From NCBI GenBank assembly GCA_023511875.1, contig JAIMAQ010000005.1, forward strand, positions 62,001 through 126,000: a stretch of DNA of 64,000 nucleotides, written 5' to 3'. The first letter of the stretch is position 1; every line of letters begins with the position of its first letter. Both the position numbers and the translations under genes were made by a program. The DNA is from Thermoflavifilum sp. (GTDB taxonomy: Bacteria; Bacteroidota; Bacteroidia; Chitinophagales; Chitinophagaceae). Below, piece after piece: positions 13,469 through 37,400 of the stretch. Under the pieces are notes generated by a model. The model was not told the DNA's origin and ran no database searches. It saw only the letters and a program-made list of their open reading frames with translations.

Positions 13469-15583
13469 ATGCAGGATGCAGGAGCTTCTATATGGAACAT
13501 GCCCATAGCCTATATTAAGGGAGTAGGCCCCCAACGGGCTGAGCTCTTGAAAAAAGAGCTTCAACTGTTTACGGGGCGCGACCTGATGATGCATTTCCCT
13601 TATCGTTATTACGACCGCTCTGAGATTACGCCTATCGCAAAGCTCAGCCCTCAGCAAGAGTATGCCCAGGTAAAAGGCAGATTACTGCAATTTCAGCTAG
13701 TAGAATCCAATCGATATAGCACGGCAAGCCGATTAATCGCTGAGCTCGAAGACGAGACAGGCTTCGTGCAGCTGGTTTGGTTTAATGGTTGGCAGTGGGT
13801 CAGAAAAAGCTTGCAACCAGGCAAAACATACTTAGCTTTTGGTCGATTATCATTTTTCAACAATATTCCACAAATCGTACATCCCGAACTTCATGATTCG
13901 CAAACTGCTCCTCATGCCTGGCCTTATGAACCTGTATATCCAACAACAGAAAAACTAAAATCACGCGGGCTCAATAGTCGCGCTATAACCCGTATCATGG
14001 CCGCTTTCTGGGAAAAAATCTCAGACAAGGATATTCCTGAGAATCTACCCGAGCATATTTTACAGCGTTATCAATTGATGGAACGAGCAAAAGCCTTTCG
14101 AGCTATTCATTTTCCCAATAGCCTGGCTGAAGCCGAAGCTGCTCGTCGTCGGTTAAAGTTTGAAGAGCTTTTTCTTTCTCAGCTGCGTATAGCCCTATTA
14201 CGCCATCAACATCATGAGCAGTCGAAAGGCTGGAAGTTTGAACAAGTGGGCGCCTTATTCCATGCATTGTATAACAAGCTGCCATTTGCTCTCACCGAAG
14301 CCCAGAAACGCGTGATTCGGGAAATTCGCCGCGATATGCTTACTGGCCATCAAATGAATCGCCTCCTGCAAGGGGATGTGGGCAGTGGTAAAACTATTGT
14401 GGCTTTACTAAGCATGCTGATAGCAGTAGACAATGGTTTTCAGGCCTGCCTCATGGCTCCTACCGAAATCTTAGCCCAGCAACACTTTAGGCATATCCAG
14501 GAATTGCTCGATGGGTTGCCCGTAGAGCTTGCCCTGCTTACCAGTAGTGTGAAGGGGGCAACGCGCCGACAAATTTTGGATGGTATCGCTGCAGGGCATA
14601 TTCGCTTGCTCATTGGTACCCATGCCTTGATTGAAGACGTCGTGCAATTTGCCCGGCTTGGCCTGGCCGTGATCGACGAACAACACCGTTTTGGAGTGGC
14701 TCAGCGAGCCGCCCTCTGGGAGAAAAGCGATATTCCGCCGCATGTATTGGTCATGACTGCCACGCCCATCCCTCGTACCCTGGCCATGACCGTCTATGGC
14801 GACCTCGATGTTTCGGTGATCGATACGCTGCCACCGGGTAGAAAAAAAATCATCACCGTGCACCGTACAAGCGATCGCCGACATCAGGTAATGGATTTTG
14901 TGAAATCTCAAATCCGCCAGGGACGACAGGCCTACATCGTTTATCCCCTTATCGAAGAATCTGAGAAGCTCGACTACGAGAACCTGATGCGGGGCTACGA
15001 AGAGGTTAAAGCTTATTTTCCCGAACCCGAGTTTCGCATCAGCATGGTACATGGGCAGCAATCTGCAGAAATCAGAAATACCAACATGCAACGTTTTGTA
15101 CAAGGCATTACTCATATTATGGTGGCTACCACTGTGATCGAAGTGGGGGTTCATGTACCCAATGCCAGTATTATGGTTATTGAAAGTGCCGAAAAATTTG
15201 GTCTTTCTCAATTGCATCAACTTCGGGGAAGAGTAGGCCGGGGAGCCCATCAGTCTTATTGCATTCTGCTAACAGCTCCAGAGATCGGCAAAGAAGCTAT
15301 GGAGCGTATTCAGGTGATGACGCAGACCAACAATGGTTTCTTGATTGCAGAAAAAGATTTAGCACTCAGGGGCCCAGGCGATATCGAAGGAACCCGGCAA
15401 AGTGGTATCATGGAGTTTAAACTAGCCGATGTGGTAAAAGACAATGATCTGTTGATGAAAGCACGTGAGGCCGCCCAACAACTGCTCGAACAAGATCCCC
15501 TGCTGATGCAGGCCGAGCATAGTCAGTTGTTGAGCTGGTTGCAAAAAGATAATCGAAAAACCCACTGGAGTAAAATATCTTAA
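13469..15583 (+). CDS. recG: ATP-dependent DNA helicase RecG
   Basis: Branch-migrating helicase that remodels stalled forks and Holliday junctions. It has 704 residues, normal length. The N-terminal wedge/OB region contains IKGVGPQRAELLKKEL and HFPYRYYDRS. The helicase core has Walker A LLQGDVGSGKT at about residue 300, a DEQHRFGVAQR box (DExH) at about 402, motif III MTATPIPRTLAMT, and the C-terminal half with LRGRVGRGAHQSYC and the RecG-specific ALRGPGDIEGTRQSG. The start at 13469 gives a few residues before the conserved region; the methionine ten residues later is also possible. It follows gltA by about 70 bases without an obvious terminator. Confidence 0.97.
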   Translation: MQDAGASIWNMPIAYIKGVGPQRAELLKKELQLFTGRDLMMHFPYRYYDRSEITPIAKLSPQQEYAQVKGRLLQFQLVESNRYSTASRLIAELEDETGFVQLVWFNGWQWVRKSLQPGKTYLAFGRLSFFNNIPQIVHPELHDSQTAPHAWPYEPVYPTTEKLKSRGLNSRAITRIMAAFWEKISDKDIPENLPEHILQRYQLMERAKAFRAIHFPNSLAEAEAARRRLKFEELFLSQLRIALLRHQHHEQSKGWKFEQVGALFHALYNKLPFALTEAQKRVIREIRRDMLTGHQMNRLLQGDVGSGKTIVALLSMLIAVDNGFQACLMAPTEILAQQHFRHIQELLDGLPVELALLTSSVKGATRRQILDGIAAGHIRLLIGTHALIEDVVQFARLGLAVIDEQHRFGVAQRAALWEKSDIPPHVLVMTATPIPRTLAMTVYGDLDVSVIDTLPPGRKKIITVHRTSDRRHQVMDFVKSQIRQGRQAYIVYPLIEESEKLDYENLMRGYEEVKAYFPEPEFRISMVHGQQSAEIRNTNMQRFVQGITHIMVATTVIEVGVHVPNASIMVIESAEKFGLSQLHQLRGRVGRGAHQSYCILLTAPEIGKEAMERIQVMTQTNNGFLIAEKDLALRGPGDIEGTRQSGIMEFKLADVVKDNDLLMKAREAAQQLLEQDPLLMQAEHSQLLSWLQKDNRKTHWSKIS

Positions 15584-15620: not shown

Positions 15621-18600
15621 ATGAACATCATGGTGTATCATCTGCATCGCATATTTGGCCATATCCAACACCGTATTCAAGGCCGAGCAACATCTATTGG
15701 CTCGATGATAGCAATCGAGCGGTGGGGGATGATACAATTTATGGGTTTATGCATGTTGAGTTGTCCATTGTTTAGTTCGGCGCAGTCTTCTTTTGGAGAT
15801 ATCAGTTTCCAGGAAAACAAGGGCCAATGGCCTACCCAGGTGAAATATCGAGCCGATATGGGTGGCGGGGCATATGTGCTCTTGAAACAACATGGTTATG
15901 GCGTGGTGATGTACGACACGGCCGATATGCATAGGCTTTGGTCAATAGTTCATGGGGGTGAGTATTCATCTGCAGCTAGCCCCCTGCATCGTCCACGCTC
16001 TCGTTTCCCCCAAGCCCTATCATCACCTGCCCAACCAGCATTTCCCATTACCCTACATGGTGTGTATTACGAAGTGCAATTTTTGAATAGCCAGCCTACC
16101 TCATTCAAAACCGATCATCCGTCTTCTACACAATACAACTATTTCATAGGCAATGACCCCGCCCACTGGGCCAGCCATGTGCAAGGCTATGGAGGGATCA
16201 CTTATGAACGGGTCTACCCCCATATCGATGTCAGGCTTTATACCGAAGCAGGTCGTCTGAAGTCTGATTGGATTCTTTATCCCGGAGCTCGCGTGAGGGA
16301 TATTCAACTTCAATACGAGGGCGTGACTAAGTTGGAAGTGAAGAAAGGCAATTTGCTGCTCAAAACCGCCATAGGTACGGTCACTGAGTTGGAACCCTTT
16401 TGCTATCAATATGTGCGAGGGCAACGCCAGCAAATTGCCTGTAAATATATACTTCATGATCTTCAAGTAGGTTTTCAAATCATGGGTACTTATGATCCTC
16501 AATTGCCTTTGATCATCGACCCTGTAGTGGTGTTTGCTACATTTACGGGCTCAACGGCAGATAACTGGGGATTTACGGCTACCTATGATGCGCAGGGTAA
16601 CTTTTATGCAGGAGGCATTGTGTTTGGCGATACTGGAAGCTATCCTGTTACACCAGGAGCCTTTCAGCAAACATATGGCGGAGGTGTAAGTGAAAGTGGC
16701 TATTATGGCTATGATATGGCTATCGCCAAATTTGATCCTTTGGGGCGAAAACTACTTTATGCCACCTACCTTGGAGGTTCCGGAAATGAACAACCTCATA
16801 GCTTGATCGTTGATCATCAGGGCAATTTAATCATAGCGGGCAGAACTAATTCTTCAGATTTTCCCCACGATATTACTTATGGGCCGAGAGGTGGCTACGA
16901 TATAGCCGTGGCCAAGCTTAGTGCTGATGGAAGCAGGCTTATTCATGGAGTGGTTATTGGCGGCAGCAATAATGATGGGGTGAATATTACCTTTGAGAAA
17001 GAGGCTGGAACAGTTTCCCTCATGCAAAATTATGGCGATGATGGCCGCAGTGAGGTGATTGTAGATGAACAAGATAACGTGTATGTAGCCAGCTGTACCC
17101 AGTCGGCCAACTTCCCGGTTACTCCTGGAGTTTTTCAATCCCGCAAAGGGGATAATACTGCTCCCCATCAGGGAAGTAATACGATTCGTACGCCTAATGG
17201 ACCATTAAGTATTCCATATAGTTATTTTGACCAAGATGCCGTAATTCTTAAGTTTCATCCTGATCTTACCCTGAGCTGGGCAAGTTATTTAGGCGGTAGT
17301 GGCAACGATGCTGCTTATGTCATTGATTTGGATCTTCAAGGAAATATTTATGTGGCGGGAGCTACTTCTAGCAGCGATTTACCAGCAGGGCGGCAAAGCG
17401 GTGCGGTGCTTCAACCCAATTACCAGGGCGGCGATGTGGATGGGTTTGTAGCAGAAATTAGTAACGATGGTTCCACTCTTCTTCGTCGGACTTATTTGGG
17501 TACTACAGGCATCGATGAAGTATATGGCCTAGCCTTAGACCGGCAGGGTTATCCCTATGTGTGTGGCACCACAACGGGCAACTGGCCCGTAGTGAATGCC
17601 CAATATGTAGAGCCTGGGGGGAAGCAGTTTATTGCTAAGCTCAAACCCGACCTGAGCGGGTATGTGTACGCTACTACCTTTGGCACCAACTCCGCCAATC
17701 CTAATATTTCACCCGTGGCTTTTTTAGTTGATCGTTGCGAAAATGTGTATGTCTCGGGCTGGGGTGGAGCATTAAATACCAACCTCAACTATATCCATGG
17801 AGGAAGCACCACAGCAGGCATGACTCTTACTCCTGATGCCCTTCAAAAAACTACAGATGGTTCTGATTTTTATTTCTTTGTATTAAAACGAGATGCGTCT
17901 GGCTTGCTTTACGCTAGCTATTGGGGAGGTGCAGGCATACTTGAGCATGTCGACGGAGGTACCAGCCGTTTCGATCCACAGGGCGTCATCTATGAAGCTG
18001 TTTGTGGGGGCTGCAGGGGCCTTTCCAATGAGCCTGTCACGCCGGGCGTGTGGTCGCCTTTTAATCGAAGCAGTAACTGCAATGAGGTAGCGTTGAAGAT
18101 AGCGTTTAATTTAAGTGGGGTGCATGTTGGGTTAAAGTCAGTAGGGGGAGATACGAGTGGATGTGTGCCGTTTACGGTACAGATAGAGGATACGGCGGGG
18201 TTGGCGAAGCGGTATGTGTGGGATTTTGAGGATGGGAGTGGAGAGGTAGTGACGACACAGGGCAGCCAGCAGCATACGTATACGCGGGTAGGACGGTATC
18301 GGGTGATGGTGGTAGGGATAGATTCGAGCAGTTGCAATGTAGCCGATACGGGTTATATGTGGGTGAAGGTAGGAGATAATCCGGCGCGGATAGGATTTTT
18401 GATAGAGAAGGTAGGGCCGTGTACGAGTTGGCAGTATCGGTTTATCAATACGAGTGTAGCGATGGGAGGAGGGGCGTTTACGGATAGTTCGTTTGAGTGG
18501 GATTTTGGGGATGGGAGTGGGATTGTACGCAGTGGGGTAGACACGTTGGAGCATGGATATGGGTCGGCGGGGGTGTATGGGGTGAAGTTACGGTTGATAG

Positions 18601-19415
18601 ACACGAATTTTTGCAATGCGCCGGTGGATAGTGAGAAGGTGTTACGGGTAGCCAGTAATGTAAGGGCGAATTTTTCGGTAGGGAAGATAGGATGTGCGCC
18701 GTATGAGGCGGTTTTTGAGAATAGGAGTGAAGGGGGTATAGGATTTGAGTGGGATTTTGGGGATGGGAGCAGCAGTAATGAGGTAAGTCCGGTTCATTTG
18801 TACAGCAAGGCTGGGGAGTATATAGTGCGGTTGATAGCGAGTGATAGTACGACGTGCAATAAGGCAGACACGATGGTAGATACGATACGGGTATATGGGC
18901 GTCCGGTATCGGATTTTGTAGTGAGTCCGGTGCCGCCGCAGGAGAATGTAGCGGAGGTATTTACGAATTTAAGTCAGGGGGGAGTGAGATGGTGGTGGGA
19001 TTTTGGGGATGGGAGTGGGGATACGACATACAATACGAGTCATTTATATTCGGCGAGTGGGCAGTATGAGGCATGTTTACGGGTGGCCAATGAGTGGGGA
19101 TGTGAAGATACGAGTTGTCGGGTGGTGGAGGCGTTGATACATCCGATGTTTGATGTGCCGAGTGCGTTTTCACCGAATGGGGATGGGGTGAATGATAAGT
19201 TTTTGGTGAGGGGATATGGGATAGGGAGGTTTGAGATAGAGATATACAATCGGTGGGGGCAGAAGGTGTATGAGAGTCGGGATATCAATCAAGGATGGGA
19301 TGGTACATATCGAGGCAAGCCACAACCGATGGATGCCTATGCCTATGTAATCCATATCCAATTTACCGACGGTAGGCAGACAACTAAAACCGGGAGTGTA
19401 ACGTTATTGAGATGA
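15621..19415 (+). CDS. T9SS type B cargo: beta-propeller, PKD repeats and CHU_C domain (copy 1)
   Basis: Large secreted surface protein, up to 1264 residues. A signal peptide lies around residues 37-55 (hydrophobic MGLCMLSCPLF, then FSSAQ), so the true start may be the ATG at 15705 or 15729. Next comes a Bacteroidota N-terminal domain (QENKGQWPTQVKYRADMG; HPSSTQYNYFIGNDPAHW). SBBP-type beta-propeller repeats follow (ATYDAQGNFYAGGIV, YATYLGGSGNEQPHSL, NIYVAGATSSSDL). Four PKD-like repeats carry WDFEDGSG or WDFGDGS motifs, and a gliding-motility-associated CHU_C domain ends the protein (SAFSPNGDGVNDKF, IYNRWGQKVYES). From residue 820 to 1252 the DNA appears identical to copy 2 and has foreign-looking codon use. 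Adhesion or another surface role is likely; ligand unknown. Confidence 0.93.
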   Translation: MNIMVYHLHRIFGHIQHRIQGRATSIGSMIAIERWGMIQFMGLCMLSCPLFSSAQSSFGDISFQENKGQWPTQVKYRADMGGGAYVLLKQHGYGVVMYDTADMHRLWSIVHGGEYSSAASPLHRPRSRFPQALSSPAQPAFPITLHGVYYEVQFLNSQPTSFKTDHPSSTQYNYFIGNDPAHWASHVQGYGGITYERVYPHIDVRLYTEAGRLKSDWILYPGARVRDIQLQYEGVTKLEVKKGNLLLKTAIGTVTELEPFCYQYVRGQRQQIACKYILHDLQVGFQIMGTYDPQLPLIIDPVVVFATFTGSTADNWGFTATYDAQGNFYAGGIVFGDTGSYPVTPGAFQQTYGGGVSESGYYGYDMAIAKFDPLGRKLLYATYLGGSGNEQPHSLIVDHQGNLIIAGRTNSSDFPHDITYGPRGGYDIAVAKLSADGSRLIHGVVIGGSNNDGVNITFEKEAGTVSLMQNYGDDGRSEVIVDEQDNVYVASCTQSANFPVTPGVFQSRKGDNTAPHQGSNTIRTPNGPLSIPYSYFDQDAVILKFHPDLTLSWASYLGGSGNDAAYVIDLDLQGNIYVAGATSSSDLPAGRQSGAVLQPNYQGGDVDGFVAEISNDGSTLLRRTYLGTTGIDEVYGLALDRQGYPYVCGTTTGNWPVVNAQYVEPGGKQFIAKLKPDLSGYVYATTFGTNSANPNISPVAFLVDRCENVYVSGWGGALNTNLNYIHGGSTTAGMTLTPDALQKTTDGSDFYFFVLKRDASGLLYASYWGGAGILEHVDGGTSRFDPQGVIYEAVCGGCRGLSNEPVTPGVWSPFNRSSNCNEVALKIAFNLSGVHVGLKSVGGDTSGCVPFTVQIEDTAGLAKRYVWDFEDGSGEVVTTQGSQQHTYTRVGRYRVMVVGIDSSSCNVADTGYMWVKVGDNPARIGFLIEKVGPCTSWQYRFINTSVAMGGGAFTDSSFEWDFGDGSGIVRSGVDTLEHGYGSAGVYGVKLRLIDTNFCNAPVDSEKVLRVASNVRANFSVGKIGCAPYEAVFENRSEGGIGFEWDFGDGSSSNEVSPVHLYSKAGEYIVRLIASDSTTCNKADTMVDTIRVYGRPVSDFVVSPVPPQENVAEVFTNLSQGGVRWWWDFGDGSGDTTYNTSHLYSASGQYEACLRVANEWGCEDTSCRVVEALIHPMFDVPSAFSPNGDGVNDKFLVRGYGIGRFEIEIYNRWGQKVYESRDINQGWDGTYRGKPQPMDAYAYVIHIQFTDGRQTTKTGSVTLLR
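18078..19377 (+). repeat. 1300-bp duplicated 3' module, copy 1
   Basis: Direct repeat with 22087-23386 at a constant offset of 4009 bases. I found no difference and no indel by reading both copies line by line. The left edge is at TGCAATGAGG (the preceding bases AAC versus ATG differ) and the right edge at GACGGTAGGC (then AGA versus GCA). It encodes four PKD-like repeats plus almost all of the CHU_C sorting domain, ending 12 codons before the stop. Coding-strand composition is G-rich and C-poor up to about 19285; the last roughly 90 bases look like the rest of the gene. Confidence 0.95.
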
Positions 19416-19503
19416 TGATCTTCATGGTATATCAATTGAGGCAAATTTTTTCAAGCCCAACACGTATGAAAATCGTAAGTTTAGCAAATGGAGCAATGCT
19501 ACG

Positions 19504-22500
19504 ATGAAACATGCAAAAGACTGTGCTGCATTCATTCTGGCTGGGAATGGTATTTTTCCACACTCAGTCGAAACTAAAAGACGCTTGCTAAACTCTTTCG
19601 GCGAGTTGGGCAGCTATTGGATTTTCTGGAGCTTCATCCTATTCGTCGTAGCCTGTAAACAGGTCTACGGGCAAGCAACAAACACCACTCTAGATGCTGG
19701 TTCACCCTTTGGCCAAGAGCAGGCAAGCTCGCCCGCAGGTCTGGCAGCGCCGCCGGCCAATGCTTTTCCTCCCTTGCTTTTCGTTAAAAATCAAGGACAA
19801 TGGGATGCAGATATTTTATATCGAGCCAATTTGCCAGGCAATGGGCAGCTATTTCTACGGTCAAACAGCATAGCCGTCACCATTTTTAATCCTGAAGACA
19901 TAGAAAATATTTCTCACCAGTATCATCCCGATGGCAATGCTACAGCTCAAGAAGAGGGAAATACGGGTGCTATGCGTACCCAGGGGAAAGCTTTATCCTC
20001 ACAAAATCAAGACTTGCGCTGGGTTGTTCACGGACAGATGTATGAAATACATTTTGCCGAGGCTAATCCTCAACCTCAGATTGTAGCCGATCATCCGAGC
20101 ACTACGTACTACAACTATTTTATCGGCAACGATCCAGCTCGCTGGGCTACACATGTGCAGGCTTTTGAAGCCGTTACCTATCAGCAGCTATATCCCCATA
20201 TCGACTTACGCGTATTTTCTTCTGCTTCCCAACTTACCTATGATTTAATCGTTTATCCGGGCGGCAATCCCAACCAAGTCGTTATGCATTATCAAGGGGC
20301 AGATAAAATAGAGGTAAAAAAAGGTAAACTCATCATATCAACCCATTATGGCCAAATCGAGGAACAGATGCCTTATGCTTACCAATATGTAGGTAATGAA
20401 AAGCGCACCGTGAATTGCAAGTTTCGGGTAAAAGGAAATCAGGTGCAGTTTCATTTTCCGAATCCTGAACAATGGGATAGACGTTACCCATTAATTATTG
20501 ATCCCACCATTGTGTTTTCTTCTTTTACCGGCTCAAGGGCTGATAACTGGGGATATACCGCTACATACGATGCGCAAGGCAACATGTATGTGGGTGGTAT
20601 TGTGTTTGGGCAAGGTTATCCTACCTTACCCACCAATCCTGGCCCCTTTCAAAGCAGCTTTGCCGGTGGATCGTCTTATGAAGGGAATGCGTACGGATTT
20701 GATATGGGGATCAGCAAATTTAGCCCTAATGGCAGAACGCTGTTGTATGCCACTTATGTGGGTGGGTCGGGTAATGAACAGCCCCATAGCTTGGTGGTAA
20801 ATAGCCAGGGAAATTTAATCATTGCCGGGAGAACAAATTCATATAACTACCCTGTCTATCCGCAAGGCAACAAAGTAGGACCTACTGGAGGGTGGGATAT
20901 TGTTGTCACCGAGTTAAATGCTACTGGTACTGCCCTTATCGGCTCTATGGTTATTGGCGGAAGAAACGATGATGGGGTGAATATCACTTCCAATCGTGCT
21001 TCAGGCACTGTTGGTTTGCTGCGTAATTATGGCGATGATGGTCGCAGCGAGGTGATTGTAGACAATGCAGGCTACGTGTATGTAGCCAGCAGTACTCAGT
21101 CGGCCGATTTCCCTACGACAGCTGGCGTTTTCCAGCCCAATAAGGGAGATCCTGCTAATTCCGTTACTCGAAGGGGGCGTGGAAGCCCCATAACATATAA
21201 TCAGCAAGATGGAGTGGTCATTAAACTCAAGCCCGATCTTTCCGGAATCGTGTGGAGTAGCTTTTTGGGTGGAAATGGAGATGATGCAGCATTTGTATTA
21301 AAATTAGATGCCTCAGGCAATTTATATGTGGCTGGTGCTACGAACAGTACCAATCTAGAGCGTTTGGCCACCAATCCTTCGGGAGTGATTCAAAATAGCT
21401 TCCAGGGAGGCGATGCCGATGGATTTATCGCTGAAATCACCAACGACGGATCTAAACTATTGCGACTGACTTATTTGGGTACTCGTGGAGCAGATGAGAT
21501 TTATGGCATTGCTCTCGACCGAAACGGATTTATATATGTGTGTGGCACTACCACTGGCAACTGGCCTGTGATCAATGCACAATATTTTAATCAGGGGGCT
21601 AAACAATTCATTGCCAAACTACAACCCGACCTAAGCGCTTATGTTTATTCCACTACCTTTGGGAGTGTTAATGCTACTATGCCTAATATTTCTCCAGTGG
21701 CTTTTTTGGTAGATCGGTGTGAGAATGTTTACGTTTCGGGCTGGGGTGGTGGGGTTTGCGTGAATAACCTTTATTATGAGATTGCAGGAACGTATGGCAT
21801 GCCCATTACCCCAGATGCCATAAAAAAGACCACAGACGGGCGTGATTTTTACTTTTTTGTTCTAGAACGCAATGCTACCAATATCCTGTATGGGAGCTTT
21901 TTTGGGCAGGATGGAGGATGTACCGACCATGTAGATGGAGGTACCAGCCGTTTTGATCCCAATGGGATTATCTATCAGGCTATTTGTGCCAACTGTGGAG
22001 GCGGAGCTATTTTCCCCACTACACCGGGCGTGTGGTCGCCTTCTAATCCCACGCTTCGTCCCGGCAATCCCTATCAAGGCGCCATGTGCAATGAGGTAGC
22101 GTTGAAGATAGCGTTTAATTTAAGTGGGGTGCATGTTGGGTTAAAGTCAGTAGGGGGAGATACGAGTGGATGTGTGCCGTTTACGGTACAGATAGAGGAT
22201 ACGGCGGGGTTGGCGAAGCGGTATGTGTGGGATTTTGAGGATGGGAGTGGAGAGGTAGTGACGACACAGGGCAGCCAGCAGCATACGTATACGCGGGTAG
22301 GACGGTATCGGGTGATGGTGGTAGGGATAGATTCGAGCAGTTGCAATGTAGCCGATACGGGTTATATGTGGGTGAAGGTAGGAGATAATCCGGCGCGGAT
22401 AGGATTTTTGATAGAGAAGGTAGGGCCGTGTACGAGTTGGCAGTATCGGTTTATCAATACGAGTGTAGCGATGGGAGGAGGGGCGTTTACGGATAGTTCG

Positions 22501-23424
22501 TTTGAGTGGGATTTTGGGGATGGGAGTGGGATTGTACGCAGTGGGGTAGACACGTTGGAGCATGGATATGGGTCGGCGGGGGTGTATGGGGTGAAGTTAC
22601 GGTTGATAGACACGAATTTTTGCAATGCGCCGGTGGATAGTGAGAAGGTGTTACGGGTAGCCAGTAATGTAAGGGCGAATTTTTCGGTAGGGAAGATAGG
22701 ATGTGCGCCGTATGAGGCGGTTTTTGAGAATAGGAGTGAAGGGGGTATAGGATTTGAGTGGGATTTTGGGGATGGGAGCAGCAGTAATGAGGTAAGTCCG
22801 GTTCATTTGTACAGCAAGGCTGGGGAGTATATAGTGCGGTTGATAGCGAGTGATAGTACGACGTGCAATAAGGCAGACACGATGGTAGATACGATACGGG
22901 TATATGGGCGTCCGGTATCGGATTTTGTAGTGAGTCCGGTGCCGCCGCAGGAGAATGTAGCGGAGGTATTTACGAATTTAAGTCAGGGGGGAGTGAGATG
23001 GTGGTGGGATTTTGGGGATGGGAGTGGGGATACGACATACAATACGAGTCATTTATATTCGGCGAGTGGGCAGTATGAGGCATGTTTACGGGTGGCCAAT
23101 GAGTGGGGATGTGAAGATACGAGTTGTCGGGTGGTGGAGGCGTTGATACATCCGATGTTTGATGTGCCGAGTGCGTTTTCACCGAATGGGGATGGGGTGA
23201 ATGATAAGTTTTTGGTGAGGGGATATGGGATAGGGAGGTTTGAGATAGAGATATACAATCGGTGGGGGCAGAAGGTGTATGAGAGTCGGGATATCAATCA
23301 AGGATGGGATGGTACATATCGAGGCAAGCCACAACCGATGGATGCCTATGCCTATGTAATCCATATCCAATTTACCGACGGTAGGCGCATCACCCGAACT
23401 GGTAACGTCACTTTATTACGGTAA
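19504..23424 (+). CDS. T9SS type B cargo: beta-propeller, PKD repeats and CHU_C domain (copy 2)
   Basis: Paralogue of the preceding gene, 1306 residues, with the same domain order. A long N-terminal region holds a hydrophobic signal segment (YWIFWSFILFVVACKQVYGQ, about residues 38-57), so the real start may be further in than the ATG at 19504. The N-terminal domain (LFVKNQGQWDADILYRANL; HPSTTYYNYFIGNDPARW) and propeller repeats (ATYDAQGNMYVGGIV, YATYVGGSGNEQPHSL) are clearly homologous to copy 1, but differ at many positions and in indels. Residues 862-1294 repeat copy 1 exactly, then the last 12 residues differ again (RITRTGNVTLLR). It is expected to be secreted by T9SS and held on the cell surface, using the PorP/SprF protein encoded next door. 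Confidence 0.93.
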   Translation: MKHAKDCAAFILAGNGIFPHSVETKRRLLNSFGELGSYWIFWSFILFVVACKQVYGQATNTTLDAGSPFGQEQASSPAGLAAPPANAFPPLLFVKNQGQWDADILYRANLPGNGQLFLRSNSIAVTIFNPEDIENISHQYHPDGNATAQEEGNTGAMRTQGKALSSQNQDLRWVVHGQMYEIHFAEANPQPQIVADHPSTTYYNYFIGNDPARWATHVQAFEAVTYQQLYPHIDLRVFSSASQLTYDLIVYPGGNPNQVVMHYQGADKIEVKKGKLIISTHYGQIEEQMPYAYQYVGNEKRTVNCKFRVKGNQVQFHFPNPEQWDRRYPLIIDPTIVFSSFTGSRADNWGYTATYDAQGNMYVGGIVFGQGYPTLPTNPGPFQSSFAGGSSYEGNAYGFDMGISKFSPNGRTLLYATYVGGSGNEQPHSLVVNSQGNLIIAGRTNSYNYPVYPQGNKVGPTGGWDIVVTELNATGTALIGSMVIGGRNDDGVNITSNRASGTVGLLRNYGDDGRSEVIVDNAGYVYVASSTQSADFPTTAGVFQPNKGDPANSVTRRGRGSPITYNQQDGVVIKLKPDLSGIVWSSFLGGNGDDAAFVLKLDASGNLYVAGATNSTNLERLATNPSGVIQNSFQGGDADGFIAEITNDGSKLLRLTYLGTRGADEIYGIALDRNGFIYVCGTTTGNWPVINAQYFNQGAKQFIAKLQPDLSAYVYSTTFGSVNATMPNISPVAFLVDRCENVYVSGWGGGVCVNNLYYEIAGTYGMPITPDAIKKTTDGRDFYFFVLERNATNILYGSFFGQDGGCTDHVDGGTSRFDPNGIIYQAICANCGGGAIFPTTPGVWSPSNPTLRPGNPYQGAMCNEVALKIAFNLSGVHVGLKSVGGDTSGCVPFTVQIEDTAGLAKRYVWDFEDGSGEVVTTQGSQQHTYTRVGRYRVMVVGIDSSSCNVADTGYMWVKVGDNPARIGFLIEKVGPCTSWQYRFINTSVAMGGGAFTDSSFEWDFGDGSGIVRSGVDTLEHGYGSAGVYGVKLRLIDTNFCNAPVDSEKVLRVASNVRANFSVGKIGCAPYEAVFENRSEGGIGFEWDFGDGSSSNEVSPVHLYSKAGEYIVRLIASDSTTCNKADTMVDTIRVYGRPVSDFVVSPVPPQENVAEVFTNLSQGGVRWWWDFGDGSGDTTYNTSHLYSASGQYEACLRVANEWGCEDTSCRVVEALIHPMFDVPSAFSPNGDGVNDKFLVRGYGIGRFEIEIYNRWGQKVYESRDINQGWDGTYRGKPQPMDAYAYVIHIQFTDGRRITRTGNVTLLR
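22087..23386 (+). repeat. 1300-bp duplicated 3' module, copy 2
   Basis: Second copy of the module at 18078-19377, offset 4009 bases, apparently identical. The switch from ordinary to G-rich codon use coincides with its left edge. It stays in frame with both host genes, entering at a Cys codon. Confidence 0.95.
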
Positions 23425-23444: not shown

Positions 23445-24521
23445 ATGTATACCATTGCATCAAGCAGCCGATTGAATCGGTATAAAAAAGCCAGAAGCCA
23501 GATTGGGCTTTTACTTCTTGGCTTATTCACTTTTGCCGGTATGTGGAGAGGTGCGAGCGCTCAAGATCTTCATTTCTCTCAATATTTTTCTGCGCCTTTG
23601 TTGACCAATCCGGCCAATACAGGTTTTATCCCTGATGCTAATTATCGGTTCGGTATAGATTATCGAAATCAATGGACTACTATTCCCGTTCCCTATCGTA
23701 CCATGTCGGCTTTTGGAGATGCACAGCTTTTGCGTAATCAGCTCACCTATGGTTGGGTGGGTGTTGGGGCTGTAGTGTTGCAAGATGTGGCAGGAAGTGG
23801 TGATTTAACCTCTACCAAAATTTATGGTTCGATTGCTTATCATCAACTACTAGGTTTGGGCAGCTTGCTTTCTGCAGGATTTAATGTGGGTTATGCCCGA
23901 AAAAGCGTAAACTTGAGTAAGCTCACTTTCGATGACCAATGGAATGGGAAATTTTTTGATGCCAGCTTACCTTCTGGTGAATATAGCGCTATCACACAAA
24001 CCAGCATCAGCTATGTAGATCTCCAGGCTGGATTAAATTATGCCTATTTTCCAAACGATCATGTGTATGTCAATTTAGGCTTTTCGGCGCAACACCTGAA
24101 TACTCCACGAGAAACTTTTTACAGTGGCGATAATCGTATTCCTCGGCGTTATATTGGCTTTGTCAATGCAAGTATTCAGTTGTCGAATATGGTCATCATC
24201 AATCCAAATGGTTATTATTCTTTTCAATCGGGAGCACATGAATTAGTAGCAGGGGGTTATTTGCAAGTCAATCTTTCTGGTAATGGTGCTCAGCAATTGT
24301 TAGGAGGCGTATACTATCGTGTTGGCGATGCTTTGATCCCTATGGTAGGTTATCAGTTAAACAACCTGAGGTTAATGTTTAGTTATGATGCAACGATGTC
24401 GGCCTTGGGTTCGAATATTCAACATAATGGTGCTTATGAAGTATCTTTGGTATATCAAGGATTGTATCAGAATACTAACTACCGTCATGAAGAGAAAAAG
24501 TTTCGCTGTCCCAGCTTTTAG
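23445..24521 (+). CDS. PorP/SprF family T9SS membrane protein (cluster A)
   Basis: Outer-membrane protein of the PorP/SprF family. In Flavobacterium johnsoniae the family member SprF is required for secretion of the type B cargo SprB. It has 358 residues. A signal segment (LLLLGLFTFAGMWRGASAQ) is followed by the family opening DLHFSQYFSAPLLTNPANTG and YRNQWTTIPVPYRTMSAFGD, then barrel strands with alternating hydrophobic residues and LSKLTFDDQW. It starts 20 bases after the copy 2 cargo gene, so co-transcription with the cargo is likely. It overlaps the next gene by 35 bases. Confidence 0.94.
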   Translation: MYTIASSSRLNRYKKARSQIGLLLLGLFTFAGMWRGASAQDLHFSQYFSAPLLTNPANTGFIPDANYRFGIDYRNQWTTIPVPYRTMSAFGDAQLLRNQLTYGWVGVGAVVLQDVAGSGDLTSTKIYGSIAYHQLLGLGSLLSAGFNVGYARKSVNLSKLTFDDQWNGKFFDASLPSGEYSAITQTSISYVDLQAGLNYAYFPNDHVYVNLGFSAQHLNTPRETFYSGDNRIPRRYIGFVNASIQLSNMVIINPNGYYSFQSGAHELVAGGYLQVNLSGNGAQQLLGGVYYRVGDALIPMVGYQLNNLRLMFSYDATMSALGSNIQHNGAYEVSLVYQGLYQNTNYRHEEKKFRCPSF

Positions 24522-25125: not shown

Positions 25126-28100
25126 TCATAATCCTTGCTTGTATTCTGGATGTGCTTTTATTAATTTTTCGTAATGATGACGGTAAGCTCTATTCCATTT
25201 TCTTCCCATAATACTGCTTCCTATGCCACTTTCTACGGCTTTTACCCAGTAATTGAAGAAAGATAAATGAGGATTCCTTCTATAAAATACTAAACCAGAT
25301 CGATGAAAGTTTTTTGAACGCAGGATCAGGTTGGCCAGGAAATTTTCTACTCCAGAATATAATTTCTTCCCAGTACTATCTTTTTCTCGGTTTAATGAAA
25401 TTCTCAGTTGATCATAATATAAATTCATATTCCCTGTAATGATATAGGCGTTACCTCTTGCTTGCATGCTTGCGTGTTGAATATTTCCAGATATTACCCA
25501 TGCATGAAACCACGATTCAAGCATGGGGTTAAATAAAGAGAAAGCAAATGGTGATGATTGCACCTGAAAAGTAAATAAATGAAGAGGTGAGTGGATATCT
25601 TCTAGATAATGTAATTGTATGATTGGTTGATCCATGAGTTTACCCTTAGCTGTAATTTGCAGGTAGCTGGCTTGTGATGGTTGTGATGTGAAGGGAGATA
25701 TGGTTGCATCAATATCATTAAACCAAACAGTAACAGGCTTGCCAGTTTGTGGAGCTACTTCTGTGTAAGCAGCATATCCTTCAACGATATTCCATTTGTG
25801 TATATCCACTCGAAATGGAAGTAGTTGTGCCACTCCCCCAGGGAGTGGTTTTATAGCTGCTTCATTGAGTGGAAGTCGTTTATCACGATAAGCTTTAAGT
25901 ATTGGTCGATATAGCCGAAAAGAATCGGCCTTTACCAGATGATCTTGCCACCAGCGTATAGGTTGAAAATTGTATAGTTGCCATTTAGATGAGCTAAATT
26001 GAATATAGTCTTTTTGCCAGCTGAGTTGCTCTTCGAATTGCTGTAGATTTAGAGCAGGATAAAATTGCAGGCTATCGCATGTAAGAATTTTTTGATGAGC
26101 ATCGTAGGTATTGTTCCAAACATGTAATATCCAAACTGGGTTTTGGTATGTACAGGTGGTAATTTGCCAACGAGCATGAGGAGAAATAGAAAAAATGTGT
26201 TGCCAAAAATTAGAATGGGTATTGGTAAGTTGAAAGTTGTAAAATTTTCCAGAACCATTTACGAGCCAATCCTCTTGTTGAAGATTAAGTTTTTGCAAAT
26301 TCAACGAATCGAGCGAAAGGTGCCACACATCATTTCCAGTGGGAGCCGTTGTGTAAGACAATTGGGAACCATTTACATTCAATGTTTGTACGTGAATGTA
26401 CTTATTTGTTTGAGGTTGTTGTATATGTAGTGAAGAAATATCGGCTTGAACATGTTGAGCAACTGTGGTCACTTGATTATTGTTTTCAGTGAGAGTGAAA
26501 TTGTATAGTAAGGCGTTGGCATGGGCAGAAATACTAGTGGAGTCTCGGTTAACGATAAATATTTGTGCATCGGTTATCTGTAAGCTATCGGCCTGGATGG
26601 GAATAACCTTCATTGTTGGTGATGTATGAGGGAATTGTGTAGTAGCCATATATTGGAAATGAGGTGCCTGGATATGGATATATTTTAGATGATATAGCCC
26701 AGTTTGGATTTCATGTTGATTGGTATTCTGCGTCAACCAGGACAAAGTAGGAATGTAAATCTGCAGGGAATCTGAGGTGCTTGAAGTATATGATACTTGA
26801 GTTACTGTTGACTCATGATGCTTGTGTAGTTGAAATTGTTGAAAACGAATATGTCTGTTATTCAAAAATAACTGACCATCTTTACCGAAAATATTAAAAT
26901 TTTGTAATCTAATTTTGTTGGGTGTTACAAGCAATGAATCGAGGTTGGCTTTTATTAGGTGGAGATTAATCTTTTGCTGTTGCTTGTCATTACTCAATGT
27001 GCATGCAGTTTCTCCTGCAATAAGGCGTTGAATAAAAATATTTGCTTTTTTTGGTCTTTCAGCTAAACTCATATTCGAATTTTGCCAATTAATCTTTGCC
27101 GATTGCCATCCAAGTTGGCTAATTTGTATAATATGTTTGCCAGAATCATTTTTTGCTTTTCCTATGCTATCTACAAAACATGTAGAGCAAGAAAAATCTA
27201 ATCCATTTTCATGTGTGATATGAAATAGATTTGCTTCGATATGGTGGTCATCTATAGATAATCCCTCAGCATATCCTGCCACTGATGGCATGTGAAAATC
27301 AATTGATCCTATTTTGGCATGGCGTAAATTGGGTTTATAAGTGTTTCTAAATTGTTGAATATGGATAGACGCATCGACATCTTTTGCATCTATTTTTTGG
27401 TTAGGTTCTTGTAGGGTAATTCTCCCATTTTGTATATCGAGAGATTGTATGTTTTGCAGAAATGGAAAATTGTGCTTATTGAAATACGTTAAATACGTTG
27501 TAGGTATTAAGTTAATAGAATTGTTCGAAGAGGATTTATGTTTAACCAGGAAGATATTTGGAGATAATAAAATAAGCGATGATGGATTCAGTTTTCTTTT
27601 AGATATCAACATATTAATATTTACCCGTGGCAAGATCATGCTTGAAGCATTCAGGTAAAATTGATTATTATTCTTTTTGTTGTTATGATGAAGCTTGGGT
27701 TGAATGAGGGTAAGGGTATCTTGACGGAGAAGAAGTTGTCTTAAAGAAAAATCCCACGAGTTATCTGAGCTGTGAAATTGATATTGGTGCATATCAATTG
27801 TAGCTTGTTGAATGCTAAACGGGTTTTTACTTTTAGCATCAAATATGATATGACTTAGAGCAAGCTGTTGATTGCCTCCTGTGAGCAGGTATTTTGTAGA
27901 TGTACCACCTGCATGAATTTGTAGAGAAGCATTTTGGATAATCGCCTGATGGATAATGGCACGATCTGTAATTCGTGACAGAACATGTTGTATGCTCTGG
28001 TTTGTATCTAATATGGATGTTGATAAATGCTGAAGGCTGAGGTGGATATCTATATATGCTTGTTTCACCACCAGAGAATCGCTTTGTATGGTTTTGTTGA

Positions 28101-28953
28101 AATAGAGCTGCGCAAACTGATTTTTTTTGAAATACAATTCTTTTGCATGTAGGTTGTAAGAGGTTATTAGCTTATTAGGGTTATATGCATCAAATTGAAG
28201 ATCATGAATTCTACAAGAACTATCTATGGTAGAAATATAAAAATTCTGGAAAGAAATTTTTTCTTGTTGATGATTCAATGAAATCGTTTGAGGGCCAAGT
28301 TGAAAGGTTACCTGGTTGTGAAGGCTTTTTTGTTTTTTTTGCTGTTGGAGAGTTGCTGTGTCGATCTTAAAATGTTGTATTTGCAAGTGAATATGCTGGA
28401 TAATGGTTTTCTCTGCAATGGGTGTAGTAGTCGAATCTGAAAATATCAATTTTCCTTGTGTGATATTCAAATGTTCGATCTGCAAAAGATTGAGTATCTG
28501 TAAGATTTGCGCATATACTCGATTCATTTGTTCGGCTAAGCTCATTGATGAGATTTGAGCTTCATTTTTGTTTAGGTTAATATACAGGGCTGGACTTTTA
28601 CAGATTACGGAGTCCATATACAAGGCTCTGTTAAAGATCAACTCGGGGATGTGGCGAATTTTTATGTATAAGTAAGGAATGTCGAGTATAAATGTGGGTT
28701 GTTTGAGATTTTCTTGAAAAGCTTTTAGTTTCACTTGATGCAGGGTGATCACTTGTAGGTTATTGTGAATGTGCATATCGTGGATCTGCAGGTCATATTG
28801 TCCGTTGGTTTGGGTTTCGACAAGCTTTCGGATGAGGCTTTCTGCATGTTGAAGCATCCAATAGCGAATGCCTATAAACGCAAGGATAAACAGTAGAACA
28901 CCTGCAGCTAGATATGCCATCCGCTTGTTGTGCTTCATTTCCAGTTGATTCAT
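25126..28953 (-). CDS. giant AsmA-like membrane-anchored protein
   Basis: Predicted 1275-residue envelope protein with one N-terminal membrane helix (about residues 13-32) and no other hydrophobic span. The remainder is a long series of amphipathic beta strands, with recurring segments such as LQVITLHQVKLKAF, LNITQGKLIFSD and LDIQNGRITLQEP. These resemble the repeats of AsmA/TamB-type proteins, which form hydrophobic grooves for lipid transfer across the periplasm. I infer this group from layout and repeat style, not from a defined motif. A positively charged C-terminal segment is present. Residues Q, H, N and I are over-represented. The start may be MNQLEMKHN or the next Met at 28938. Confidence 0.72.
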   Translation of the reverse strand: MNQLEMKHNKRMAYLAAGVLLFILAFIGIRYWMLQHAESLIRKLVETQTNGQYDLQIHDMHIHNNLQVITLHQVKLKAFQENLKQPTFILDIPYLYIKIRHIPELIFNRALYMDSVICKSPALYINLNKNEAQISSMSLAEQMNRVYAQILQILNLLQIEHLNITQGKLIFSDSTTTPIAEKTIIQHIHLQIQHFKIDTATLQQQKKQKSLHNQVTFQLGPQTISLNHQQEKISFQNFYISTIDSSCRIHDLQFDAYNPNKLITSYNLHAKELYFKKNQFAQLYFNKTIQSDSLVVKQAYIDIHLSLQHLSTSILDTNQSIQHVLSRITDRAIIHQAIIQNASLQIHAGGTSTKYLLTGGNQQLALSHIIFDAKSKNPFSIQQATIDMHQYQFHSSDNSWDFSLRQLLLRQDTLTLIQPKLHHNNKKNNNQFYLNASSMILPRVNINMLISKRKLNPSSLILLSPNIFLVKHKSSSNNSINLIPTTYLTYFNKHNFPFLQNIQSLDIQNGRITLQEPNQKIDAKDVDASIHIQQFRNTYKPNLRHAKIGSIDFHMPSVAGYAEGLSIDDHHIEANLFHITHENGLDFSCSTCFVDSIGKAKNDSGKHIIQISQLGWQSAKINWQNSNMSLAERPKKANIFIQRLIAGETACTLSNDKQQQKINLHLIKANLDSLLVTPNKIRLQNFNIFGKDGQLFLNNRHIRFQQFQLHKHHESTVTQVSYTSSTSDSLQIYIPTLSWLTQNTNQHEIQTGLYHLKYIHIQAPHFQYMATTQFPHTSPTMKVIPIQADSLQITDAQIFIVNRDSTSISAHANALLYNFTLTENNNQVTTVAQHVQADISSLHIQQPQTNKYIHVQTLNVNGSQLSYTTAPTGNDVWHLSLDSLNLQKLNLQQEDWLVNGSGKFYNFQLTNTHSNFWQHIFSISPHARWQITTCTYQNPVWILHVWNNTYDAHQKILTCDSLQFYPALNLQQFEEQLSWQKDYIQFSSSKWQLYNFQPIRWWQDHLVKADSFRLYRPILKAYRDKRLPLNEAAIKPLPGGVAQLLPFRVDIHKWNIVEGYAAYTEVAPQTGKPVTVWFNDIDATISPFTSQPSQASYLQITAKGKLMDQPIIQLHYLEDIHSPLHLFTFQVQSSPFAFSLFNPMLESWFHAWVISGNIQHASMQARGNAYIITGNMNLYYDQLRISLNREKDSTGKKLYSGVENFLANLILRSKNFHRSGLVFYRRNPHLSFFNYWVKAVESGIGSSIMGRKWNRAYRHHYEKLIKAHPEYKQGL

Positions 28954-33832: not shown

Positions 33833-34406
33833 TCCTAAAAAAGCTCGGCTGGCTAAGCCATGAAGATTAAAAAACATGATTACCTTTCTCTAAGCAAATG
33901 CATGTTGCGGATGCATTTGTAAGGCATTTGTTTGAAATTTAAACTGACTCTTGAAAAATAGGACTGAATTTAGGTCAAAGTTGAAGTATGAGAAAACTGA
34001 ATCAACACACACAAGTCCATCGGAGTATTTCATTTTTCATGGCGAATGGAACCCATTTTGGCCATTTGTTTACAGTCTTGAACTTTCTTAGGTTTCCAGA
34101 CAAATAAAGAAGATTACAGATCAAGATTATCATCTCATGCTCCCTTTTAGTCTAAATTGCCCGAAGGAAAATGCATTTACTCAGAAAACATTAGGGCAGT
34201 ACATTTTCTAAGCATATTCAGGTTTTTTATTTCATCTATTTAAAAGGCCAAATAGCACTTAATATACTTCAATTTTCATTCCTCTGCCTGGCAACCCTAT
34301 AATGAAAATTTAACCACAAATGTTTTATAAACAAAATTTTCATATTATCTTTATTGCATAACCGTTGATCCTTTTTTGCTCGGAAGGGCAATTAATAAAG
34401 CCACCT
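33833..34406. other. 574-base intergenic region with an inverted repeat and an unsupported small frame
   Basis: The longest gap in the window. It holds a perfect 9-base inverted repeat, CAAATGCAT (33895-33903) and ATGCATTTG (33911-33919), around a 7-base loop. There is no T-run after it, so an operator or RNA structure is as likely as a terminator. On the plus strand an open frame of 39 codons runs from the ATG at 33988 to the stop at 34105-34107. Part of its product (MANGTHFGHLFTVLNFLRF) loosely recalls the N-terminus of IS4-like transposases, but this is too weak to call a relic. TATCTTTA at 34346-34353, one base off the -7 consensus, may be the promoter of the PKD gene. Confidence 0.5.
33895..33919. 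repeat. perfect 9-bp inverted repeat
   Basis: Arms CAAATGCAT and ATGCATTTG with loop GTTGCGG, 63 bases after the hpt stop. It is AT-rich and lacks a following T-run. Confidence 0.6.
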
Positions 34407-37400
34407 ATGAAAAACCGGCGTACGGTCTGCTGCGTCTTGCCTGTATTATCTGCCTGGATATGGGTGGCCGTTTTCTTTTTGAGTCTTCAAGCGGCATCGG
34501 GTCAGGTGGTAGCCCGATTTGAAGCCGATACCACACAAGGTTGTTCCCCGGTTATTGTGCATTTTATAGATCTATCTACGGGTAATATTGTTTCGCGATA
34601 TTGGGATTTTGGCAATGGGAACCATATTCGATATGATAGTGCAGTGAATCCCAGTGCCAGTTATATCGAGCCTGGTTATTACAATGTTTCGCTTACAGTA
34701 ACCGATGCTTCGGGGAATAGCTCCACACAAACCTTACAGGTGGCTGTATTCGGAGCGCCCAAGGTAAGCTTTATACCCGATTCGGCTTGGGGATGTTATC
34801 CAGTAACGGTAAATTTTAAGGATCGGTCATTGCCTGGATCGGGGTATATTACTCAATGGCTATGGGATTTTGGAGATGGCCATACTTCAACGCAGCAAAA
34901 TCCCATATACACCTATACTACTCCAGGAAAATATCGCGTACAGCTTATGATAACCAATAGCTACGGCTGTACTGGTGTATCCGATACAGCTGGAGTGGTG
35001 GTAGTACCGAATCCTGTAGTAGCCGCTTTTACGGCCGATAGCACCATTTCTTGTCAGGCTCCGTTTACAGTGCAGTTTTCCAGCCAGAGCCAGGGTGATG
35101 GGGCATTGCATTATTACTGGGATTTTGGAGATGGTAACTCTTCAACCGACCCTCATCCAGTGCATGTATACACAAAAAGTGGAGTGTTTACGGTAAGTTT
35201 GATAGTGACCGATAGTTTAGGATGTAGCGATACATTGGTGAAAACACAATATATTCAGGTGGGCAATCTGCCGCAACTAAACGTGAATATTCCTTCTCCC
35301 ATTTGTGCCCAATCGCAGGTGTTATTTACCAACCCAACTCAACCCACTCCACGACAGATTCAATGGATGTTTAGCGACAGTACTATTTATTCTGGCCCAC
35401 AGGTCAGTAAATCCTTTTTTTCTCCAGGAAATTATTCGGTTCAAGTCATCAATACTTACAACAGTGGATGTAGCGATACTCTAAACAAAACATTTACAGT
35501 TGTTGCTCGGCCCATGGCCGATTTTCAGGCTTCTCCACGGATAGGCTGTGATGTGCCCTTGAGGGTATCGTTTCAATATACGGGTTCAGGTGCAGTGAAG
35601 TATTACTGGGAGTTTGGAGATGGAGGAACGGATACTACGGCTTCACCCATACATGTATACCAAACTTTTGGCAACTATACGGTAAAGCTCAAAATAGAGA
35701 ATGCTGCTGGCTGTATGGATTCGGTGGTGCGAGACGCTTACATTCAGATTCAACCACCTACGGCTCGCCTATTTGCCAGTCCTGATCACGGTTGTGTGCC
35801 CTTGCAGGTAAGTTTTTCTGCCCAAGTGCATAGCTTAGACAGTATAGTCAGTGCTGTATGGGATTTTGGGGATGAGCAAACAGCATCGGGGCTTGCTGTT
35901 CAGCATACTTATCTCAAGGAAGGGATTTATACGGTTAAACTTACGATTACCACGCAATCGGGATGTACCAGCAGTTTCACTTATCCTACCCCTATTCGAG
36001 CAGGAACTCCGCCAGCTGTTAATTTTTCTGCTACACCCACCCAGGCTTGTGCAGAAGTAAATATCCATTTTACCGATTTATCTAACCTGGGCGAACAATG
36101 GTTGTGGTTGTTTGGCGATGGCGGTACATCTGCTCTGCAAAATCCCACCCATATTTATGGCGATACAGGATACTTCGACGTGAGTCTTATAGTGACGCAT
36201 TTAGGTTGCACCGATACTCTCATCAGACCACGCTATATCCATATCTTGCCTCCCATTGCTGCTTTTGACATAAACAGGAATTGCAGTACACCTTATACCA
36301 TTCAGTTTTTGGATCGTTCCATTGGGGCTATTCACTATCAGTGGGATTTTGGAGATACTGCTTCAGGGGCCGCTAATTACGACACGATTCCCAATCCAGC
36401 ACATGTGTATTCCAGCACCGGTACTTTTACCGCAACGCTTACCGTAAGCAACGATACCTGCACCTATACTACCCAACATACCTTTCAGATTATCGACGAG
36501 CATCCCGATTTTACGGTGAGCGACACCGTTTTGTGTCGAAATGATTCTGTTAGCCTGCAAGCGGTGAATATTCATCCCAGCTTAATTCGATCTTATCGGT
36601 GGACTTATCAAGGGCCGGCATCGGGTAGCCAAACCACTACTCAGCCCTCTGTGCATTTTACCCTGAGCCAGCCTGGTGAATACAGTTTTACTTTGATCAC
36701 TACCGATGCCAATAATTGCACCGACACGGTTACTCATGAACGGTTGGTACGGGTAGAAGGGCCTACGCCTAATTTTACCGTAGGCAACCAAGGTTGCGCA
36801 CAAGTAGCCGTACCCTTTCAAGATGTATCGGTACCTAATGGTAGCCCTTTGGCCTCGTGGGTGTGGGATTTTGGAGATGGGGTAAAAGATACGCTGTTGG
36901 CCAACGACACGATACACAATGGCAGCACTAGCCACATCTATCAGCGGTCGGGCACCTATTCGATTACGCTTTTGGTAACCGATAGTAATGGTTGTTCTCA
37001 AAAAATCACAAAACCCAATGGTGGGTTGCATATTACTCAGGTAAAAGCCCAATTTTATTCGGCAGATACTTTTTCATGTCCTGGCAAGCCCGTTCATTTT
37101 GTCAACCAATCTACTGGGCAGTTGGCTGAAATCCGTTGGACCTTTGGTGATGGCAGCAGCTCTTTACAAAGCAATCCCGTTCATGTGTACGACACCGATG
37201 GGGTATATGATGTGGGCTTGTATGTAGCCAATAGTTATGGTTGTAGTGATAGTTTGCTTCGGCCAGCGTATATCCATATTGCTACACCGCATGCCGCTTT
37301 TTCTATCAGCAATTTACCCGACAGTGGAGGGGTAAAATGTCCACCCTTTGTAGCGCAATTTGTTAATCATTCGGTGAATTACCGTTCGGTAAAATGGGAT

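Follow-up and report, generated by a model that had tools for sequence, protein, structure and literature searches.

The present analysis concerns a stretch of 64,000 nucleotides from Thermoflavifilum sp. (assembly GCA_023511875.1, contig JAIMAQ010000005.1, positions 62,001 to 126,000), in the following referred to as the window, and in particular two neighbouring genes on its plus strand, here termed A and B, which share an identical module of 1300 bases near their 3' ends. Both encode a large head followed by a PKD stalk and a sorting domain of the type IX secretion system (T9SS). The features used in the comparison are given below.

15621..19415, plus strand: gene A, 1264 amino acids; DUF7948, SBBP propeller, PKD and CHU_C/TIGR04131 T9SS type B sorting domain
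19504..23424, plus strand: gene B, 1306 amino acids; domain order as in gene A
15621..18077, plus strand: part of gene A that encodes the head; differs from the B head along its length, 57.8% nucleotide identity
19504..22086, plus strand: head-coding half of gene B; nucleotide comparison with the A head, head tree
18078..19377, plus strand: homogenised module, copy 1; end of the propeller, PKD stalk and most of the sorting domain; 1300 of 1300 bases identical to copy 2
22087..23386, plus strand: homogenised module, copy 2; 1300 of 1300 bases identical to copy 1
19378..19415, plus strand: unconverted A-type tail, QTTKTGSVTLLR and stop; tail comparison
23387..23424, plus strand: unconverted B-type tail, RITRTGNVTLLR and stop; tail comparison

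An identical module between diverged heads and diverged tails

Base-by-base comparison of the two module copies revealed no mismatch at a constant offset of 4009, and the identity stops abruptly at exactly 18078/19377 and 22087/23386. Both copies begin in frame with a TGC (Cys) codon, residue 820 of A. The heads upstream are 57.8% identical at the nucleotide and 52.6% at the amino acid level, while 3' of the module each gene retains 38 nucleotides including the stop codon, where 16 of the 35 coding bases differ. An earlier note on this DNA had thus correctly described the identical stretch, the diverged first halves, the renewed divergence over the last 12 codons and the in-frame entry at a Cys codon; its placement of the entry at the propeller/PKD junction is accurate to a few tens of codons. 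In A, the best-scoring Pfam PKD stretch covers residues 849-903 and matches profile positions 17-69, and since the profile is matched only from position 17, the PKD domain is expected to start near residue 833, corresponding to about codon 13 of the module. In module coordinates, the PKD stretch itself starts at codon 30 and the sorting domain extends from about codon 359 to codon 443. No third copy of the module was identified in the 2.70-Mb genome to which the window belongs (G000).

Heads and modules have different histories in the genus

The search of the genus covered five genomes (G000-G004), four of which (G000-G003, with G001 being Thermoflavifilum thermophilum) contain both genes in readable form. 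The open frames of G001-G003 were taken from stop to stop, so that the heads of these genomes are counted with some extra codons upstream of the actual start. In G002 and G003, each a single contig, the tandem order recG-A-B-porP is the same as in the window. Within each genome the heads of A and B share 57-60% of their nucleotides, compared to 66-86% for orthologous heads between species, whereas the modules including the tails are 98.2-98.8% identical between A and B of the same genome, dropping to 79-87% when species are compared. Over the first 1290 nucleotides, A and B differ at 0, 5, 0 and 7 positions in G000, G001, G002 and G003, with a synonymous divergence (dS) of 0, 0.017, 0 and 0.021 as opposed to 0.388-0.636 between species (429-430 codons). 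The module occurs as an exact repeat of 1298 bp in G002 and as exact blocks of 266 and 896 bp in G003. In the head tree A and B form separate clades with a support of 100/100, while in the module tree A pairs with B of its own species in all four species. Thus, sequences cluster by species in the module and by paralogue in the head, and the identity extends to synonymous sites. A separately computed excess of synonymous identity is sensitive to context and is given little weight here.

Purifying selection on the protein alone could be invoked to keep the modules alike, as both proteins are presumably exported and anchored by one and the same machinery. This explanation is refuted by the absence of any synonymous difference between A and B in 430 codons of G000 and G002, while G000 and the other species differ synonymously at 84-95 codons. 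An assembly artefact, either the duplication of a single module copy or the merging of two similar ones, would be conceivable in a genome represented by 35 contigs, as G000 is. However, the pair recurs with species-specific sequence in two single-contig genomes, which renders such an artefact highly improbable and largely answers the concern about assembly errors raised in the earlier note.

The A-type and B-type tails are conserved in G000, G002 and G003, indicating that the tract has long ended at this place on its 3' side. All 12 residual differences between A and B upstream of nucleotide 1290 (5 in G001, 7 in G003) are located at or beyond nucleotide 900 (p of about 6e-7 if they were distributed uniformly), and the 5' part of the module has thus been homogenised more completely than the 3' part. 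As judged from these sequences, long-running concerted evolution of a part of the gene is real and well supported in four species. The statement that ancient paralogy cannot give such a pattern therefore needs to be divided: the genes are ancient paralogues, and it is the module alone that escapes divergence. Conversion (or unequal exchange), one of the two explanations given in the earlier note, is supported, but as a process that has recurred throughout the divergence of the genus; a single recent event does not agree with a pattern seen in four species.

The module is the regular C-terminus of the protein, also outside the genus

DUF7948 was found in at least 111 of the 117 sampled genomes of the family. 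In the closest relative outside the genus (L064) the head is 52% and the module 50% identical to the window protein, and in another (L022) both are 48% identical to it. As the module follows the head at similar identity, it is to be regarded as the normal orthologous C-terminus, and the idea of the same cassette having been inserted into both genes was not borne out. The codon usage of the module, which sets it apart from the remainder of A and B, might be taken as a sign of foreign origin. Yet in relatives outside the genus the head is followed by these 445 residues as well, with a similarity about equal to that of the head, the 3' end of the tract is located inside the sorting domain, and the modules differ by 13-21% between species while still pairing by species; a foreign cassette is thus very unlikely.

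Other pairs of neighbouring genes were compared at seven loci from among the matches listed and at L056 and L139, giving nine loci and 11 gene combinations; the survey left out G056, where the genes run off the contig, and G005:C4, where one gene is short (981 amino acids) and lies near the contig end, and L080, apparently the same record as L197, was compared separately. A homogenised pair was found in one of the 11 combinations, L192 on the minus strand of G111, a member of another genus of the family. Similar to the Thermoflavifilum pair, its last 445 codons are 96.1% identical (longest exact run 197 nucleotides) compared to 62.8% in the head; in contrast, its 5' boundary is graded, the genes are alike to the end so that no distinct tail is present, and no G-rich skew is found (GC skew -0.12). 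A homogenised stalk and anchor with diverging heads is thus seen in two genera here. In the other ten combinations C-terminal identity ranges from 61 to 77%, and small conversions may have occurred in G097 (77.2% at the C-terminus, 69.8% otherwise) and in G053, where a single exact run of 100 nucleotides is present. Exact direct repeats of at least 40 nucleotides were found at 4 of 89 loci, the longest being 113 nucleotides. A 113-bp exact direct repeat (offset 3024) lies near a related gene in a Chitinophagaceae metagenome-assembled genome and was recorded with identical numbers on two of its contigs (L096 and L097), perhaps one sequence held twice. The relatives listed are mostly from Chitinophagaceae or broader Bacteroidetes records; two full-length relatives with 42-44% identity come from records titled Beijerinckiaceae (L110) and Flavobacterium (L100), for which mislabelling or contamination is possible.

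A strand-asymmetric composition tract nearly coincides with the module

The coding strand of the module is rich in G and poor in C. The ends of this tract were located by two-composition segmentation of third codon positions, with an uncertainty given as 2 log-likelihood (lnL) units.

18084..19280, plus strand: G-rich, C-poor tract, copy 1; change points best placed at codons 2 and 401; within 2 lnL units the start falls between codons 0 and 5 and the end between codons 397 and 419
22093..23289, plus strand: G-rich, C-poor tract, copy 2, best change points; the start falls between codons -1 and 5 and the end between codons 397 and 419

The module has a GC skew of 0.51-0.53 in G000 and 0.42-0.44 in G001-G003, while that of the heads is 0.03-0.10. 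A table of homologues without the window's own A and B comprises 133 rows, duplicates included; 14 of these are from the genus, and of the 119 others 10 are other PKD stretches of G000. The homologous stretch has skews from -0.204 to 0.199 across the 119 rows from other loci. Among 3760 windows of 1300 bp in each of two samples, the largest absolute skew was 0.247 in 400 kb of G002 and 0.256 in a 400-kb sample of G000 (contig C26). The bias is also apparent in codon choice: in the modules of the four A genes taken together, Glu is encoded by GAG in 88 of 91 cases, Lys by AAG in 42 of 42, Ile by ATA in 41 of 60, Leu by CTN in 1 of 56 and Thr by ACG in 98 of 111, whereas usage in the heads is mixed.

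The start of the tract is placed at module codon 2 in six of the eight genes. In A of G003 the boundary is at the same place, as the end of a complementary segment, and in B of G003 the start is at codon -21. Within 2 lnL units, the start lies no further downstream than codon 6 in all eight genes, and the range reaches upstream by 13, 19 and 24 codons in the B genes of G002, G001 and G003, respectively. The 3' end, where it could be located, is at codon 401-418, inside the sorting domain, compared to codon 433 for the end of the identity. The start of the composition tract thus appears to fit the conversion boundary better than the start of the PKD region, although both lie close together.

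The skew might be unrelated to recombination and result from selection, acting either at the level of the mRNA (by purine loading, low structure or slow codons) or on the way the stalk is translated, an explanation to which we give somewhat less than even odds. Codon choice is uniformly for G or purine, the homogenised pair of G111 was converted in the absence of skew, and the tract starts about 13-30 codons before the PKD region, so that a link to the stalk domain is possible. However, a start at codon 2 in most and at or before codon 6 in all genes precedes the estimated start of the PKD domain, the 3' end falls inside the sorting domain, and the conversion tract accounts for the 5' end better than the domain does. 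In addition, a 1650-amino-acid protein of the same genome with 15 PKD stretches is not skewed, and a composition specific to PKD domains was therefore rejected. A strand-biased process may likewise be the cause. In G002 the two genes seem to point with replication according to coarse skew; as dnaA is located at 0.61 Mb, away from the skew switch at about 0.1-0.24 Mb, this orientation is a rough estimate.

Further candidate causes were dismissed. Each module contains 0-3 strict G-quadruplex motifs, a number not exceeding that obtained by permuting codons, which speaks against selection for such structures. An overlapping antisense gene does not explain the skew, as every antisense frame contains stops (2 to 11 in 1260 nucleotides) in the four species, and enriched oligomers of the module did not yield an interpretable motif. 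An R-loop-forming sequence, according to a rule patterned on a published tool, is predicted in the module of all eight genes, and none was predicted in the 400-kb samples of G002 (both strands) and G000. As this prediction reflects the same skew, it does not constitute independent evidence. Within the window, one further such place of 114 bp is predicted at 43497-43610 (plus strand). The opposite bias to that of the module occurs in an open reading frame at 25126-28953 (minus strand, 1275 amino acids), the coding strand of which is C-rich and G-poor; skew of the plus strand reaches 0.33 in 1300-bp windows, at about 27501. This frame gave no Pfam or NCBIfam match at an E value of 0.001.

Proposed mechanism

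We consider it probable, at roughly 0.88, that A and B are ancient tandem paralogues whose 3' modules have been homogenised repeatedly by RecA-type recombination between direct repeats. According to this model, which is based on sequence comparison, two genes with different propeller heads arose early, and gene conversion, with or without unequal exchange, would keep the 1.3-kb module nearly identical within each genome, with RecA-type homologous recombination as the likely machinery. The limits of the tract would be set by the loss of homology, in the divergent head on the 5' side and in the 12-codon tail on the 3' side. Divergence could thus proceed in the heads with stalk and anchor remaining shared, and a shared C-terminus would suit export via one T9SS/PorP-SprF partner, which might favour its maintenance. 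MutS1 and MutL were identified in all four genomes that carry both genes, which speaks against a loss of mismatch repair. A diversity-generating retroelement or another form of copying by reverse transcriptase was discarded as well, as no reverse transcriptase of family PF00078 (RVT_1) was detected in the four genomes by a search that was positive in 3 of 14 control genomes.

Instead of conversion, sister chromosomes might undergo unequal crossing over, and cycles of duplication and loss of the approximately 4-kb unit would then homogenise the module equally, since a crossover anywhere within it leaves heads and tails intact; we regard this course as possible, though less likely than not. The contigs of T. 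thermophilum are of particular relevance in this respect. Its 2.85-Mb chromosome contig carries the A-head, the module and the B-tail, and a small contig (C1, L051) of 4036 bp, consisting of 3968 bp and a 68-bp terminal overlap, carries the B-head, the module and the A-tail. These arrangements correspond to the two reciprocal products of an exchange, with the switch in the 68 bp between the A/B differences at module nucleotides 1047 and 1116. However, the ends of the small contig, at module nucleotides 1048 and 1115, directly adjoin these two differences, as would also be the case if an assembler had misresolved a repeat, and the pair is intact in G000, G002 and G003. The contigs may thus reflect either a crossover in the 68-bp interval in the sequenced culture or an assembler error at the repeat, and the name 'circle' is not warranted for the small contig.

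Several points weigh against repeated homogenisation by recombination, at least in its more specific forms. The data are assemblies, with one genome per species, and the sequences fit conversion and unequal exchange alike. Non-reciprocal transfer is not what the T. thermophilum contigs show, their arrangement being reciprocal, possibly as an effect of assembly, and the comparison of A and B in this species is based on two contigs that may be misjoined. The module is present in four of the five genus genomes; for G004 (89% complete, 320 contigs) no match was obtained and a contig ends inside the A head, a finding that in so incomplete a genome neither supports nor contradicts concerted evolution. 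Finally, the pair of G111, with C-terminal parts 96.1% identical and no skew, demonstrates that skew is not needed for homogenisation; skew and recombination are thus not linked in general, and conversion as a general cause of skew is contradicted.

The G richness of the module's coding strand is evident, and it may render the module recombinogenic when transcribed. G-rich DNA is found beside or within transcribed, recombining loci that are associated with G-quadruplexes or R-loops, such as pilE of Neisseria and the expression sites of variant surface glycoproteins (VSG). Immunoglobulin switch regions are similarly G-rich, transcribed and recombining, with loss of the segment between repeats as the product. 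In comparison to these systems, the Thermoflavifilum module is characterised by its computed R-loop potential alone. It might be speculated that the tract maintains itself: the skew would promote R-loops upon transcription of the operon, these would stimulate recombination with the neighbouring copy, and recombination would in turn spread and conserve the skew. The locus would then be comparable to a switch region, but in a bacterium and within protein-coding DNA, with the stalk kept in common while heads diverge or are lost as a unit. A G-rich, C-poor non-template strand is present as such a scheme demands, but the one clear independent case of conversion, the pair of G111, lacks the skew, and we regard the scheme as unlikely.

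Relation to known systems and significance

Concerted evolution of duplicated prokaryotic genes is well documented, as exemplified by tufA/tufB and the 26 long-lasting cases of Wang and Chen (PMC6053082). In the parts of that study considered here, paralogues are likewise closer within a species than orthologues between species, also at synonymous sites and over long times, but the cases concern whole duplicate genes, mostly of core pathways; its main text does not contain the word Bacteroidetes. In Thermoflavifilum, by contrast, it is the 3' third of a gene for a secreted protein that evolves in concert, with fixed internal ends and diverging heads. For tuf, conversion tracts have been measured, and initiation was effectively uniform along the gene (PMC5485169). 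The hagA, rgpA and kgp genes of Porphyromonas gingivalis also encode T9SS-linked surface proteins of Bacteroidota with identical adhesin repeats within and between genes; the portion of the source at hand does not mention a base-composition boundary (PMC5266723), and the likeness is drawn from the published description. Among the papers listed, with most subscription papers outside reach, titles and abstract openings revealed nothing on this locus or on a conversion tract bounded by strand-asymmetric composition.

What appears to be new is a conversion tract smaller than a gene that nearly coincides with a tract of strand-asymmetric composition. The locus offers a clean natural case of concerted evolution confined to one part of a bacterial gene, the ends of which are the same from species to species. 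The product is a secreted protein of several domains, the N-terminal one of which, DUF7948, is widespread in the family. It makes two ideas testable at one place, namely that transcribed G-rich DNA feeds conversion or that conversion biases composition. On the practical side, whole-gene trees of such genes mix two histories, and repeats of this type may be misassembled. The gain for the cell may be the presentation of two different propeller heads on one stalk, with one sorting domain that fits the same export partner.

Protein architecture and neighbouring genes

The sorting domain of TIGR04131 scores 56.5 bits in both gene products (curated cut-off 35), and PF13585 (CHU_C) scores 70.6 bits in A and 66.5 bits in B (cut-off 27). 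A PorP/SprF gene is the usual neighbour of T9SS type B cargo, and such a gene directly adjoins the pair on its 3' side. By sequence criteria, A and B are T9SS type B cargo and are predicted to be surface proteins consisting of a propeller head, a PKD stalk and a CHU_C anchor.

23445..24521, plus strand: PorP/SprF family outer-membrane protein gene; PF11751 with an E value of 2.5e-41, TIGR03519 with an E value of 2.1e-51
13469..15583, plus strand: upstream flanking gene, the product of which we take, as judged from the sequence, to be a RecG-like ATP-dependent DNA helicase; a homologous neighbour is present in G001-G003

A profile search with the head revealed no sequence relative with a solved structure. 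The fold model of the head, with a mean predicted local distance difference test score (pLDDT) of 84.2, resembles a beta-propeller, and its best match in the PDB is CylK, a weak similarity with a template modelling (TM) score of 0.42 by query. A second T9SS type B cargo gene of 1650 codons with 15 PKD stretches is located in the window at 34365-39317 (plus strand) and is followed by a PorP/SprF gene of its own at 39365-40399 (plus strand).

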